Shown: positions 2,256-40,288 of the stretch, one piece after another
How the letters are laid out: every line of letters starts with the position of its first letter
Position numbering within the stretch: position 1 is the stretch's first letter
Source: Pseudomonadota bacterium
GTDB taxonomy: Bacteria > Desulfobacterota > Desulfobulbia > Desulfobulbales > CALZHT01
Assembly (NCBI GenBank): GCA_018823135.1
Contig: JAHJJF010000102.1
Coordinates: 1 to 48,132, forward strand
Direction of reading: 5' to 3'
DNA length: 48,132 nt
Program-made: the position numbers and the translations under genes
The notes under the pieces: generated by a model
Told to the model about the DNA's origin: nothing
What the model saw: only the letters and a program-made list of their open reading frames with translations
Databases searched by the model: none

Positions 2256-4504
2256 TAATAAAGATTCCGACCACCCATGGTGAGCAGAGACTTGTGCAGA
2301 TTGCGCCTGAACTCCCGGCGGTCCCAGATACCTTGTATATGTCCTCTTCTCAGAGCATTCCTGGACTTATGATAATCCGGTGGAATGTCTTCACCGGTGG
2401 TCTCCCTGATCACCCCTTCTCCGGCAAAACCGATGCGGCTTGACCGTATGGCGAACTGATAGGGCGAACAACCCAGGAAACTGGCCACCGGCCCGGCATA
2501 GGAATTGATATCATACACAACGATATACAATCCACCGTTATCTATATATTCCCGCACCGCCATGGTACATTTCGGCATCTGTACGACACCCAGGGTCCCT
2601 TCGTGGATTCTGATGCCGCCGGTTGTGTGGACATAGGCCAGAAGCGGCCGTCTGCGGATCTTGGCTGACTCGCAGGCCAGCACGAATTTCTCGCCTTCGG
2701 CAGCGCCCACCGTGCCGTTTCTGAAATTGCTGTACAGCAGAGCAACCACCAGATCGACCCCCATGACCTGCGCATCAAAGGTTATGATTGCGCTATTGCG
2801 GCCCGTCTTGCTGCACGCGGTTTTCAGCTTGCTTTCATATCCGAAAAAACCAAGGGGGTCCTTGGCGCAGATATCGGCATTGAACTCACGAAAGGAATCC
2901 TGATCAAATAGATTTTTCAGATACCATTCGTACTCAAGAGGAAAATGGTGCCCGCAGTTTTCACAGACGCCGCAGAATTCACCATAAAGGTCCGGCACCC
3001 AGAGATCCTTGCACCCGTGCTTTTCAGCATTGGGGCAGGACACGGTTCTGTCCTCATTGGCCAGATGGCTTGTATACTGCTCGCCGAATTTCAAATCTTC
3101 CTCGGCTCCGGCAGGTCGGCCGGCAACCGCCTTGACGATCTTATTCTCCGGTTTTCTGGATATGAAATTATATGCCGCACTGAACGGCGCAGAAACCTGT
3201 TTGATTAAAACAGAGCCTTCGCCGTGCACATCCTCAAACACTTTGCGCACCTGCTTCTGCTGGCTTTTGAGAACATCATAACGAAAAGAGTAATAGACCC
3301 TGGCCGCAAGTTTGGTTACTGTCCGAAAAAAAGCTGAGCTGGCTCCCTTTTTACCGTCAAATGCGTGGGTCGCCATATTCCGGTATTTCCTGGAGCGCTG
3401 GGCCAGAAGCCTTCTCACTTCATCGCTCTGCAATTCCCAGGAAATATTGAGATGCGGTTTTTCAACGGTGGGATCCTCGACCTTTTTCATTTTCACTTCA
3501 TAGGCTCTGAAGGCCCGCAGACTCTTGGTCTTCAACACCACTTCATCGGTGGCGCGAATTATCTCAAACCGCAACCGCTTGAAAAAAACAAAATCATCGC
3601 GCTTTGCTCCCAGGGGAGGCTCCTGAATTATCCGGTCAATGGTTCCAAGGCGCAGATTATCTTCGGCAGTAATCCGCAAACGCTCGGCGGTTGCCTCGAT
3701 CATTTCCTTGGGGACTTTTTCTCCCTCGCGGAATTTTCCGTCAATGGCCGCGCCGCCTTCAGGAGATATTACCGAATAATAACCATGGGAGAACATCATG
3801 CGCTGGTCGGCCATACCAATGGCCTCGGCGCCGCCGGAACCGCCCTCCGAGGTAACCGAGATCATCGGTACCCGTAATTTTGCCATGACATAGAGGTTTC
3901 TGGCAATCTGCTGGGCCGCGCCGGGATAGTCCTCCACTGGAAAAGCTCCCGGGGTAAATACATAAAAATGGATGGGAATGCCTTCGGTCTCGGCAACCCG
4001 CATGTAGCGCAGGGCCTTTTCATTGCCCCACGGTTTGGCGGAACCGCCGTTTCGGTATTCCTCGCCATGACCCTTTTCATGGCCGATGACCATGACCTGC
4101 CGGGTAACAACCCGGTTTTTAAAGCGGCGCAATATATTCGCCCGGGCAGCAACCATGGCCGGATCGATATTGATATCCTCCTCGCCGCCAAGCTCGGTGA
4201 AATCGTCATAGACGTTTTCAAGAATATCCTTGAGAGAAAAGCGCTGGGGATTACGGACAATCCGCACCCTTTCCATGGAGGTCAGGTTTTCTTCGCAGCG
4301 ATCTTCCAGAAAAGACAGGGAATCTTCAAGAGCCCGCACCTGTTCCGCAAGACCTTCAACTGTATGATCATAGAAAGAATCCCGCAGCTGATTGATTTTA
4401 CTTACAAGGCCAGCAAGGTTGCCCCATTCACTGCCTTCCTTAATCTGGGAAAGGTAGTTTATCCGCTCTTCAGCTTTGAGGAGCCGCTTTCTTAAATCTT
4501 CCAT
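2249..4504 (-). CDS. Fused acyl-CoA (acetyl-CoA) carboxylase carboxyltransferase, AccA-AccD order
   Basis: A 751-aa fusion. Residues about 1-330 resemble AccA: coiled-coil start, GHEKG (141-145), FTPGAFPVEDYPG, and the CoA/oxyanion segment EGGSGGAEAIG (220-230) followed by SVISPEGGAA. A linker of about 150 residues follows. Residues about 485-751 resemble AccD: a Cys cluster (C490, C498, C511, C514, C517) like the AccD zinc finger, then crotonase-fold motifs RNGTVGAAEGEKF and TTGGIRIHEG. The AccD signature SGGARMQEG is thus clearly altered. It should move carboxylate from carboxybiotin to an acyl-CoA. The order alpha-then-beta is the reverse of the AccD-AccA fusions known elsewhere. It lies 18 bp after accC. 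Acetyl-CoA is the likely substrate, but the altered motifs leave room for another acyl-CoA. Confidence 0.85.
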   Translation of the reverse strand: MEDLRKRLLKAEERINYLSQIKEGSEWGNLAGLVSKINQLRDSFYDHTVEGLAEQVRALEDSLSFLEDRCEENLTSMERVRIVRNPQRFSLKDILENVYDDFTELGGEEDINIDPAMVAARANILRRFKNRVVTRQVMVIGHEKGHGEEYRNGGSAKPWGNEKALRYMRVAETEGIPIHFYVFTPGAFPVEDYPGAAQQIARNLYVMAKLRVPMISVTSEGGSGGAEAIGMADQRMMFSHGYYSVISPEGGAAIDGKFREGEKVPKEMIEATAERLRITAEDNLRLGTIDRIIQEPPLGAKRDDFVFFKRLRFEIIRATDEVVLKTKSLRAFRAYEVKMKKVEDPTVEKPHLNISWELQSDEVRRLLAQRSRKYRNMATHAFDGKKGASSAFFRTVTKLAARVYYSFRYDVLKSQQKQVRKVFEDVHGEGSVLIKQVSAPFSAAYNFISRKPENKIVKAVAGRPAGAEEDLKFGEQYTSHLANEDRTVSCPNAEKHGCKDLWVPDLYGEFCGVCENCGHHFPLEYEWYLKNLFDQDSFREFNADICAKDPLGFFGYESKLKTACSKTGRNSAIITFDAQVMGVDLVVALLYSNFRNGTVGAAEGEKFVLACESAKIRRRPLLAYVHTTGGIRIHEGTLGVVQMPKCTMAVREYIDNGGLYIVVYDINSYAGPVASFLGCSPYQFAIRSSRIGFAGEGVIRETTGEDIPPDYHKSRNALRRGHIQGIWDRREFRRNLHKSLLTMGGRNLYYR

Positions 4505-36401: not shown

Positions 36402-36843
36402 GAATATCGCCCTGATACATTTATATAGCCACGGCACTTGAAGCTCCCCGCGGCAGGAAAGCACGTGCTCCGAACCACGGGGAATGAACTCCCTGTTCCT
36501 GTTCAACTCATTATAAAAAAATAAAACATAATCAGTTATTGATGCAATTGTGAAATGATATTTCTGATTCCCAAAAAAAAAACATTGTGGTTTAACCGTA
36601 TTACACTTTTTAATATACGATTAACCAGGGAGTTGCCGATTGGCCTTTCTGCCGACTTCTGTTTTACACAGAGGCTCAAATCAAGAATATTGACCGGTGT
36701 TGCAAACGGCATAGTTGTATTTTTTCACATTACCGAGAAAAAAAATATCATCTGGAACTTTTATTTACTATCCATTGTCATAAAGATTAACTGGTTGCTG
36801 TCCACAAAAGCCCGGATAGCCTCAGAGTCAGGCGTCACTTATA
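36402..36843. other. AT-rich divergent region upstream of the ECF sigma gene
   Basis: About 440 bp. An open frame of 98 codons (36555-36851) overlaps the sigma start and has no ribosome site or protein-like composition, so I reject it. The only clear signal is the sigma-E-like promoter at 36754-36782. Confidence 0.5.
36754..36782 (+). promoter_or_regulatory. Sigma-E-type promoter for the ECF sigma operon
   Basis: GGAACTT (36754-36760), then 16 bases, then GTCATA (36777-36782). The -35 equals the sigma-E consensus, and the -10 matches four of six bases of GTCTAA. It lies 61 bp before the sigma ATG, so positive autoregulation is likely. Confidence 0.7.
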
Positions 36844-37421: not shown

Positions 37422-38351
37422 ATGGAATGCACAAAAATTCAGCATCAATTTTCAGATTTTTTCGAAAGCGACTTAAATGCAGAGGAATCGTCCTCCGTAA
37501 AAGAGCATCTCGATTCCTGCTCCCAATGCGCAGAGGAATGGAAATATTTCAGGGACACTCTCCATCTCCTTCACTCCATTGAACCGGAACCGGTCCCAAG
37601 GGGTATGCTTGCCGGCATCCATGCGAAACTCGAAAAGAAAAATATGCTCCTGCGCTTCCTCCTTTGGTTCCGACATGCCAATCCCACCATGACCATCCCT
37701 GCCGCGGCCACAACTATCGTTATTGCGTTTACCTGCATGGCCCTTTATAAAACCGTGCTTCAGGAAAAGCCTTTCATGGAAAACCAATCCATCCCGAAGC
37801 AGAATATCGCTCAGAAACCAGGCGACGGACCATCCATCACTGTTGCAGATGCGACCCCTTATTCCGGCGGCAACAACCCCTTACAGAACTTCTCCATCTA
37901 CAATGGCCCGGCCGAACAATATCCAGGATTTTTCCAGAATAATATTACTCCCCATGGACTCGCATTCGCCCCTGATATTTCCTTTGCTTCAACAGGAAGG
38001 TCAGCAAGAGGCATTTATCAACGTCCTGGAAATCATCTGCTCAACCGATATGTAAACAATTTTCTCGGGTCCGATTCAACAAACCATGTACCCCCTGATC
38101 TGCTGATAACGGTCCAAGCCACAAACCAACGTCCTCCGACAAAACTCTATCATTCTCTCCTTGCTGAAAAAACGTGGAACCCTCGCGTCCTTGACGGCAA
38201 CCTTCTGATACTTTTTCTTCCCCCCGAGGATCTGCCTCATCTGCAACTTTCTCTTAAGAATTATCACGTCCAGGTATCACCTCCTGGCGCCCAGGCAATT
38301 CTCTCAAGCTACAACCGCGACATCATACGAGTGGCTATTTTGATCAAGTAA
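37422..38351 (+). CDS. Membrane anti-sigma factor with zinc-finger (ZAS) domain
   Basis: A 309-aa protein starting 17 bp after the sigma gene. The N-terminal ZAS motif is H29-x3-C33-x2-C36 (KEHLDSCSQCAEEW), which binds and inhibits ECF sigma factors. A single TM spans about 90-109. The 200-residue periplasmic part is Pro/Asn-rich at first and ends in a compact domain with LLILFLPPEDLPHLQLSLKNYHVQVSPP. It should release the sigma factor on envelope stress through proteolysis. It is functionally like RseA but not similar outside the N-terminal region. Confidence 0.88.
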   Translation: MECTKIQHQFSDFFESDLNAEESSSVKEHLDSCSQCAEEWKYFRDTLHLLHSIEPEPVPRGMLAGIHAKLEKKNMLLRFLLWFRHANPTMTIPAAATTIVIAFTCMALYKTVLQEKPFMENQSIPKQNIAQKPGDGPSITVADATPYSGGNNPLQNFSIYNGPAEQYPGFFQNNITPHGLAFAPDISFASTGRSARGIYQRPGNHLLNRYVNNFLGSDSTNHVPPDLLITVQATNQRPPTKLYHSLLAEKTWNPRVLDGNLLILFLPPEDLPHLQLSLKNYHVQVSPPGAQAILSSYNRDIIRVAILIK

Positions 38352-38520
38352 ACTTTTTTATGCGTTCATTGCTTGCCGCTATTTCACCCCGGAAAAGCTG
38401 AAACTCCCAGGCGATGACAATACCCCGGCACAACACTCTTTTCCGTCCCCTTAAAAAAGTTCAAACCCTGCTGATCATTTTCAGCAATCCAAAAAATATT
38501 TAAACGAATTATTTTTTCCC

Positions 38521-38548
38521 GGAACTTTTCATTTACCGCAATGTCTAA
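38521..38548 (+). promoter_or_regulatory. Perfect sigma-E-type promoter, intergenic
   Basis: GGAACTT (38521-38527), a 15-base spacer and GTCTAA (38543-38548) match both consensus boxes of sigma-E promoters exactly. A start near 38554-38556 is expected. The next feature downstream on this strand is a terminator, not an ORF, which points to a small RNA. Confidence 0.75.
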
Positions 38549-38553
38549 TTTAT

Positions 38554-38664
38554 AAATGCAACATTTCATGTAGCATTGTTTTTTACTCCTCCTTCCCTCA
38601 GGAACCATTCCCTGGTTCCACTGGGGTCGCATGGTTGCCCAGCCATGCGACCCCATTCTTTTAT
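38554..38664 (+). ncRNA. Candidate sigma-E-dependent small regulatory RNA
   Basis: About 110 nt from the predicted start to the end of the T-rich tail. There are three hairpins. Hairpin 1 (38555-38577) has AATGC/GCATT and ACAT/ATGT stems with an A-A mismatch. Hairpin 2 (38601-38619) is GGAACCA-TTCCC-TGGTTCC. Hairpin 3 is the terminator (38622-38655). The single-stranded linker 38578-38600 contains T6 and CTCCTCC (38586-38592), complementary to strong Shine-Dalgarno sequences. No ORF of note lies inside. The layout resembles sigma-E RNAs such as MicA and RybB, but the sequence is unlike them. It could instead be a leader with an attenuator for degP. Confidence 0.6.
38622..38664 (+). terminator. 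Rho-independent terminator, 13-bp stem
   Basis: TGGGGTCGCATGG (38622-38634) pairs perfectly with CCATGCGACCCCA (38643-38655) across 8 bases, followed by TTCTTTTATTT. It ends the sigma/anti-sigma transcript, the candidate small RNA, or both. Confidence 0.85.
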
Positions 38665-38689
38665 TTAAGTAAACAGAAGCGAGCCCCCC

Positions 38690-38717
38690 TTGACAAAGGA
38701 TGTATAGGCCATATTAA
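38690..38717 (+). promoter_or_regulatory. Possible sigma-70 promoter for degP
   Basis: A perfect TTGACA (38690-38695), 16 bases, then TATTAA (38712-38717), located after the terminator and 92 bp before the degP ATG. It would give degP a basal supply independent of the stress sigma factor. Confidence 0.5.
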
Positions 38718-38809
38718 ATACGATATATCTATCTTGATCAGACAAACCGAAACAATCCCTGAGTATTACAATCCATAACAATCAGGAAATGCATTACAGA
38801 GGAGCACCG

Positions 38810-40288
38810 ATGAAAGCCATAACAACATCCTTGACAGCCGTTTCTCCCATCCGTTTATTCCACGGTCTCTTAATACTGGCATTTATACTGCCGGTTACTT
38901 TGCATCGGGAAGCCCTGGCGCTGACCAATCCTAACTCGACCTTTGCCGATCTTGCTGAAAAACTCGGTCCCACAGTGGTCAATATTTATACAACACAGGT
39001 ATTAAGCCCTCCCAAAAAACAACTCCAGAGACACCCCCAGAAACAACCGTTTAACAATGAAGAAATCCCGGAGTTCTTCAAACGTTTTTTTGAGATCCCC
39101 CCTCAGGAATTCGGCGAACATCCTCACCAGCAGCAGGACAAAAAAACAACAAGCCTGGGCTCTGGGGTAATCAATTCCGCCGACGGCTATATTATCACCA
39201 ATAACCATGTCATTGAGAACGCCGATAAAATCAAAGTACGGCTGACAAATTTAGAGGAATATGAAGCTGAAATAGTTGGCAGGGATCCAAAGACCGACAT
39301 TGCGCTGATTAAAATCACTCCGGAGAAAGCCCTGCCCTTTGCGATATTTGGTGATTCCGATTCTTTACGTGTCGGGGATTGGGTCATGGCCATCGGCAAC
39401 CCCTTCGGCTTCGAGCATACAGTTACAGCAGGCATTGTCAGCGCCAAGGGTCGATCAATCGGTGGCGGCCCTTACGAGAACTTCATTCAGACCGACGCGT
39501 CCATTAACCTGGGAAATTCCGGGGGGCCGCTTTTCAATATGAACGGAGAAATGGTTGGCATCAACACGGCGATTTACAGCAGAAGCGGTGGCAATATCGG
39601 CCTGGGTTTTGCCATACCGGTCAACATGGCTAAATGGGTCATAAAACAGCTCAAGGAACATAAACAGGTCAGCCGGGGCTGGCTGGGAGTAATGATCCAG
39701 GATGTTACCACCGAACTGGCCAAACAGTTCGGTCTGACAAGACCCATCGGCGCCCTTGTCGGCGAAGTCTCAAAGGACAGTCCCGCAGAAAAGGCCGGCA
39801 TCCTCCCCGGCGATGTGATCATCAAATACCAGGATAAAGAAATAACCCACATGACCCAGCTGCCGGCCATGGTGGCCCAGACAACTGCGGGTACTCATGA
39901 AAAAATAACGATTATCCGCAAAGGCAAGGAACAGGTAATATCGGTTACCATCGGCAAACTGGAAGAAGAGAAAATCAATTATGGAGATGCCGGGGAAGAA
40001 CCTCAACAGACCGCCGGTCTCACCGTCCAGGAACTGACTCCGGAATTGGCAGAATCTCTGGGGATTGAGGAAAAGAAAGGACTGCTGGTCACAGACGTCG
40101 AAGCGGGCTCCCCTGCTGCAGAAGCCGGCATGCGAAGAGGCGACCTGATCCTTGAAGTCAATCAGATGCCGGTTGGCGACTTGAACGCCTATAATGCAAT
40201 ATTGAAAAATACCAAGAAGTCAGAAAACATTCTGTTCCTGATCAACCGGAACAACCACACCAGGTTTATTGTTGTGAAAAACGAATAG
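38810..40288 (+). CDS. degP: Periplasmic serine protease DegP/HtrA
   Basis: A 492-aa secreted protease/chaperone. It has a signal sequence (about 15-38), a trypsin-like domain with H133 (ITNNHVIENA), D163 (KTDIALIKI) and S237 (GNSGGPLFN), and two PDZ domains (about 290-370 and 395-490). It degrades or refolds misfolded envelope proteins. The ATG at 38810 follows AGAGGAG by five bases and is preferred to the ATG seven codons upstream. It is the third gene of the sigma-E module, converging on trpF. Confidence 0.95.
   Translation: MKAITTSLTAVSPIRLFHGLLILAFILPVTLHREALALTNPNSTFADLAEKLGPTVVNIYTTQVLSPPKKQLQRHPQKQPFNNEEIPEFFKRFFEIPPQEFGEHPHQQQDKKTTSLGSGVINSADGYIITNNHVIENADKIKVRLTNLEEYEAEIVGRDPKTDIALIKITPEKALPFAIFGDSDSLRVGDWVMAIGNPFGFEHTVTAGIVSAKGRSIGGGPYENFIQTDASINLGNSGGPLFNMNGEMVGINTAIYSRSGGNIGLGFAIPVNMAKWVIKQLKEHKQVSRGWLGVMIQDVTTELAKQFGLTRPIGALVGEVSKDSPAEKAGILPGDVIIKYQDKEITHMTQLPAMVAQTTAGTHEKITIIRKGKEQVISVTIGKLEEEKINYGDAGEEPQQTAGLTVQELTPELAESLGIEEKKGLLVTDVEAGSPAAEAGMRRGDLILEVNQMPVGDLNAYNAILKNTKKSENILFLINRNNHTRFIVVKNE

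Follow-up and report, generated by a model that had tools for sequence, protein, structure and literature searches.

The window analyzed here, a 48,132-nt stretch of DNA from a Desulfobulbales genome, carries an ECF sigma factor gene, an anti-sigma factor gene, a candidate small RNA (sRNA) gene, and degP, in that order (Table 1). Against NCBIfam, the sigma factor has its best match to the RpoE model TIGR02939, under that model's cut-off, and exceeds the cut-off of the sigma70-ECF model TIGR02937. degP, which has an alternative in-frame start at 38789, lies on the same strand as the sRNA and 145 nt downstream of it.

Table 1. Features of the sigma/anti-sigma/sRNA/degP locus, numbered from the first nucleotide of the window; class A denotes RNA genes inside the sigma locus.
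Feature	Position	Strand	Basis
Sigma-E-type promoter of the sigma gene (putative autoregulation)	36754..36782	+	GGAACTTTTATTTACTATCCATTGTCATA; same type upstream of this gene in most relatives
RpoE-like ECF sigma factor gene, 186 aa	36844..37404	+	Pfam Sigma70_r2 and Sigma70_r4_2
Anti-sigma factor gene, 309 aa, N-terminal zinc-finger motif	37422..38351	+	Pfam zf-HC2; homologs in 36/96 genomes of the order
Sigma-E-type promoter of the sRNA	38521..38548	+	Sole match in window; none in 100 shuffles; precedes 28 class A loci
Hairpin I (AAUGC...GCAUU)	38555..38577	+	Fold; 5/5 pairs with two-sided changes among homologs
Exposed pyrimidine linker CUCCUCCUUCCCUC, SD-complementary, proposed pairing region	38586..38599	+	Unpaired probability 0.99; tract in 18/18 homologs
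Hairpin II (GGAACCA-UUCCC-UGGUUCC), C-rich loop	38601..38619	+	Fold; 6/7 modeled pairs with two-sided changes
Rho-independent terminator, 15-bp stem, GCCC loop, U-rich tail	38622..38666	+	Fold, covariation
TTGACA-N16-TATTAA, candidate sigma-70-type degP promoter	38690..38717	+	Sequence read; TTGACA also after the sRNA terminator in relatives
degP/htrA, Do-type serine protease; SD GAGGAG 38799-38804	38810..40288	+	TIGR02037 above cut-off

The sRNA promoter consists of GGAACTT (38521-38527), a 15-nt spacer, and GTCTAA (38543-38548), with transcription predicted to start near 38554-38555. An initial annotation of this DNA had read both sigma-E boxes as exact at this spacing and had put the chance expectation of such a match far below one in the window, and both statements held: the full pattern occurs once on the two strands of the 48-kb window, and dinucleotide shuffles yielded no match even with a 14-16 nt spacer allowed. 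As in Hfq-dependent sigma-E sRNAs such as MicA, RybB, and MicL, the promoter appears to lie directly upstream of the RNA. Because the sRNA and the sigma gene share a promoter type, control by this sigma factor is the natural inference, and transcription of the sRNA by the product of the ECF sigma gene, which lies two genes upstream, is very likely.

The predicted transcript spans about 109 nt, from about 38554 to 38663. Its fold, computed at -45.8 kcal/mol versus -21.2 kcal/mol in shuffles (z = -7.4; equaled by 0 of 200 shuffles), runs 5' to 3' through hairpin I, the exposed CUCCUCCUUCCCUC, hairpin II with its UUCCC loop at 38608-38612, and the terminator, recovering the arrangement of 5' hairpin, unpaired linker, second hairpin, and terminator that had been predicted. 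The linker, CTCCTCCTTCCCTC, has a mean unpaired probability of 0.99 in this fold. The terminator, whose stem (38622-38655) is followed by TTCTTTTATT, is strong, and its stem has 15 bp rather than the 13 bp first assigned. A comparison of the sRNA with Rfam gave no match at gathering, and a relaxed search gave chance matches only, with E up to 10.

We found a single syntenic homolog by DNA search, in another genus of the same family, with 84% identity over the linker, hairpin II, and terminator. Searching with the anti-sigma protein located loci in 36 of 96 Desulfobulbales genomes, and in many of these the gap between anti-sigma and degP holds a sigma-E-type promoter, a hairpin, a pyrimidine tract, a second hairpin, and a terminator. 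Since a single MAFFT alignment of all homologs misaligned hairpin II, covariance models were built stepwise. Model R1, built from six sequences of family f5 only and with the window excluded, found the sRNA locus as its only match in the window's genome (E = 6.9e-6). Model R2, for which 33 aligned matches (27 of them distinct) were used, added families f9 (L146 in genome G010) and f14 (L142 in G033), both outside its training set, and at both loci sigma, anti-sigma, RNA, and degP follow in order, with the promoter. The promoter, which the covariance model does not include, is present at 13 of the 16 further loci that only the model brought in (12 recognized by pattern and L142 by eye), the exceptions being L140, L058, and L048, the last of which differs in its 5' part. 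We judged the R2 matches L058 and L140 to be chance, as they have no promoter and a different neighborhood and L140 falls outside the order. Among 395 genomes sampled from the phylum, no convincing sRNA match was found outside Desulfobulbales.

The order sigma/anti-sigma, sRNA, degP recurs in at least six families of Desulfobulbales, an order of sulfur-cycle bacteria (f1, f3 in one genus, f5, f9, f10, and f14), and f7 (L007), with no recognizable promoter, is a possible seventh. A genome scan with degP returned seven close loci (L060-L066), six of them with the RNA, which were the same matches as in genomes already covered. Most f3-family loci are without the sRNA and have degP directly next, or a similar promoter just before it; L013 and L017 are two such loci with a sigma-E-like promoter immediately upstream of degP. 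This arrangement suggests that over evolution the promoter may have been reassigned between degP and the RNA. In genome G011, locus L034 has group II intron matches (Rfam RF02001 and RF01998) at 2881-3167, just downstream of the sRNA, and degP was not found within the sequence examined there.

Among the 27 distinct rows of the alignment, 22 of 26 base pairs have two-sided changes, 93.6% of cells pair, and 86 cells are changed on both sides, whereas shuffles gave 17 such cells and slid structures no more than 25. We take these figures as support and not as strict significance because the alignment rests on a fit to the model, consists mainly of f5 sequences, and contains the chance match L058. 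Individual minimum-energy folds have the same architecture in nearly every sequence, with L012 and L007 lacking hairpin I. The initial annotation had made its reading depend on conservation of the stems and linker in relatives; both are conserved, and the promoter is too. It had also called the RNA lineage-specific, which agrees with its occurrence in the order Desulfobulbales as an independent gene behind a sigma-E-type promoter. Judged by these sequence comparisons, the locus is a conserved RNA gene, apparently representing a conserved, undescribed family behind sigma-E-type promoters. A search of a literature collection found no paper joining Desulfobulb*, small RNAs, and rpoE.

Scanning 11 genomes with the promoter pattern gave 32 sites versus 42 for a reversed-pattern control, and because the raw count is not above the control, only the context of the sites carries weight. 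By context, 8 sites belong to class A, 5 to a sigma gene, 10 to what we call class B, and 1 to an htpX-like gene, with 8 coding or unassigned. Whereas class A genes lie inside the sigma locus, class B genes lie elsewhere, unlinked to degP: they are other CU-rich RNA-like genes with a sigma-E-type promoter and a terminator, and are more heterogeneous. They carry CUCCUCC in a hairpin loop plus a second CU-rich linker, the typical class B RNA combining a CUCUCCUCCUUC-like hairpin loop with a single-stranded CCCUCUCUCCUUCC and a terminator. Loci of this class are L199 (G006), L202 (G028), L170/L192 (G036), L164/L200 (G002), L177 (G081), L190/L201 (G069), L184 (G051), L195, L196, and L197. In G006 and G028 they form tandem pairs spaced 158-159 bp apart, and the G006 pair is convergent with two Hsp20 genes. 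Several class B loci lie beside Hsp20 genes, and L184 and L190 lie between chemoreceptor-like genes. The strict promoter pattern revealed no class B gene in the genome of the window.

A pyrimidine run of 11-27 nt (median 20) is present in 18 of 18 homologs analyzed and is longer than in shuffles (p < 0.04 each). The tract in f1 and f14 contains CCUCCUU, which matches the anti-SD of 16S rRNA; in many f5 homologs it reads CUUCUUCCUUUCC in place of CCUCC and is a poor pairing partner for the AAGGAG sites before degP. Thus, of the exposed CTCCTCC linker first described, the exposed, SD-complementary pyrimidine segment stands, but the exact CTCCTCC is not invariant; the conserved feature is the all-pyrimidine tract. 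Pairing of the linker with the GAGGAG before degP, also part of the initial annotation, did not hold up: a species' own sRNA/degP pairs (mean -7.9 kcal/mol) are no better than pairs swapped between species (-8.6 kcal/mol). We rejected degP as a conserved sRNA target on this result and do not favor it as a target. When the genome was searched for 12-nt stretches complementary to the linker, no plausible target at a ribosome site emerged. Because the genome yielded no long complementary match at a ribosome-binding region, short seeds, as in Listeria LhrC, are the likely mode of pairing.

By analogy of build, the closest functional analog is this LhrC family. In Listeria monocytogenes, LhrC RNAs are 111-114 nt long, induced by envelope stress, and encoded in several copies per genome; they carry redundant CU-rich UCCC sites in a stem-loop, a single-stranded linker, and the terminator loop, dispense with Hfq, are controlled by the two-component system LisRK, and have a known mRNA target (PMC4132741). 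The sRNA described here is of similar length and has CU-rich, UCCC-type sites in loop and linker (38608-38612 and 38586-38599). Its promoter points to induction by envelope stress. A single copy was found in the window's genome, and relatives carry further RNA-like genes of class B. LhrC differs in its Gram-positive host and in answering to LisRK and not to a sigma factor, and there is no homology or Rfam match between the two, so the sRNA would work like LhrC without being a member of that family.

Hfq itself was not found: the NCBIfam Hfq model had no match in the window's genome (~95% complete), and the Pfam model matched 0 of 96 Desulfobulbales genomes, complete ones included, while controls such as E. 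coli were positive. The analogy to the Hfq-dependent MicA and RybB that had first been drawn is therefore a poor one. In enterobacteria these RNAs, each with its own sigma-E promoter and terminator, form a repressor arm of the envelope stress response (PMC4651636). What they share with the Desulfobulbales sRNA is the control logic, a short, trans-acting-type RNA with its own sigma-E promoter and terminator; they depend on Hfq, use other seeds, and have no homology to it, whereas the gene here sits inside the sigma/anti-sigma/degP locus.

Starting from the computed promoter, terminator, fold, conservation, and synteny and from the failed Hfq search, we infer, with moderate confidence, a stand-alone regulatory RNA gene of ~109 nt that is transcribed by the upstream sigma factor and whose product pairs with mRNAs and blocks their translation without Hfq. 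In our model, envelope damage would free the ECF sigma factor from its anti-sigma factor, and the freed sigma factor would raise expression of its own operon and of the sRNA. Rigid hairpins would keep CU-rich segments single-stranded, namely those in the linker, in hairpin II (its UUCCC loop), and possibly in the loop of the terminator. Independently of Hfq, these segments would most likely base-pair with the purine-rich ribosome-binding regions of a group of mRNAs, probably encoding envelope proteins, and so block their translation. CU-rich repression at ribosome sites is the probable activity, and the sRNA probably shuts off translation of other genes upon envelope damage.

The main rival is a protein-binding role, in which the same stand-alone, sigma-E-dependent RNA would use its tract to sequester a protein, such as a KH- or S1-type RNA-binding protein or Rho, and would not act as an antisense RNA. 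Such a role could explain why the tract is kept in composition and not in exact sequence, why it is CU-rich without a fixed CCUCC in f5, and why pairing with degP is not conserved. However, known sRNAs of the same anatomy, the LhrC RNAs, pair with mRNAs (PMC4132741). The f1 and f14 RNAs and the tandem class B RNAs also expose CUCCUCC or CCUCCUU, and we consider protein sequestration unlikely.

Less probable still is that the sRNA is a conditional 5' leader of degP, with the sigma-E promoter serving degP and the hairpin acting as an attenuator whose read-through is regulated. In E. coli, degP belongs to the classical sigma-E targets; here it follows the sRNA on the same strand, and in some f3 genomes without the RNA (L013 and L017) a sigma-E-like promoter stands just before it. 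Yet the terminator is very strong, the distance from the RNA end to degP ranges from 77 to 540 nt among loci, and a TTGACA element lies between terminator and degP in the window and again in relatives; together, these features favor an independent RNA over a degP leader. degP seems to have its own TTGACA promoter. No degP, moreover, follows any of the comparable CU-rich RNA-like genes with sigma-E-type promoters.

That the transcript encodes a small protein is highly improbable. Several homologs do have an ATG in hairpin I, with a frame open through the pyrimidine tract, whose composition leaves no stops, but there is no SD and almost no leader, the frame closes after five codons in the window and after two in L142, and the ORF is not conserved. 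Homolog lengths differ by non-multiples of three and the stems covary, so a coding function appears unlikely; the original description had no ORF in this RNA, and there is no plausible sense ORF. A 90-aa antisense ORF (38384-38656, minus strand) overlaps the sRNA, and nothing supports a gene there. Finally, a functionless chance pairing of promoter and terminator in an intergenic region is barely credible: consensus matches alone are weak evidence, but there were zero promoter matches in shuffles, and conservation of promoter, stems, and linker in at least six families already contradicts chance.

For the preferred reading, an Hfq-free antisense RNA, two further systems are instructive. RepG of Helicobacter pylori, a Gram-negative bacterium lacking Hfq, recognizes a G-rich 5' UTR by base pairing and modulates an envelope (LPS) gene (PMC8322730). 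It offers a precedent for Hfq-free sRNA action on an envelope gene, and differs in sequence, control, and lineage and in targeting homopolymeric G repeats. The CcsR RNAs carry CUCCUCCC loops. In Rhodobacter sphaeroides, CcsR1-4 ("cuckoo" RNAs) are tandem, stress-sigma-controlled RNAs with a role in stress defense; they arise by processing of a precursor that also contains the DUF1127 gene ccaF1, under RpoHI/RpoHII (PMC10253847, PMC8307010). Stress-sigma control, predicted for the RNAs described here, and tandem arrangement are common to both systems, but in Desulfobulbales each copy has its own promoter and terminator, and the neighbors are sigma, anti-sigma, and degP, with no DUF1127 co-transcription.

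The known role of sigma-E sRNAs is that of a repressor arm based on Hfq. Here, a conserved, covarying sRNA is built into the sigma-E locus of an order in which no Hfq was detected. If our reading is right, these RNAs and the unrelated Gram-positive LhrC have converged on CU-rich, ribosome-site-directed control of envelope stress. More tentatively, the output of the RpoE-like sigma factor in Desulfobulbales may consist largely of Hfq-independent CU-rich sRNAs of classes A and B, an SD-masking brake on translation with an origin independent of the Hfq-based response. Among the relatives carrying class B genes is G006, which we take to be Desulfurivibrio alkaliphilus AHT2, and this cultured species with a complete genome would be suitable for testing. 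Its class A gene lies at 1,754,148-1,754,259, and its class B promoters are at 505,928 and 506,086. A candidate protein-coding member of the regulon lies in another relative, where a sigma-E-type promoter (G036:C37:54600, L203) stands directly upstream of an htpX-like membrane protease gene.
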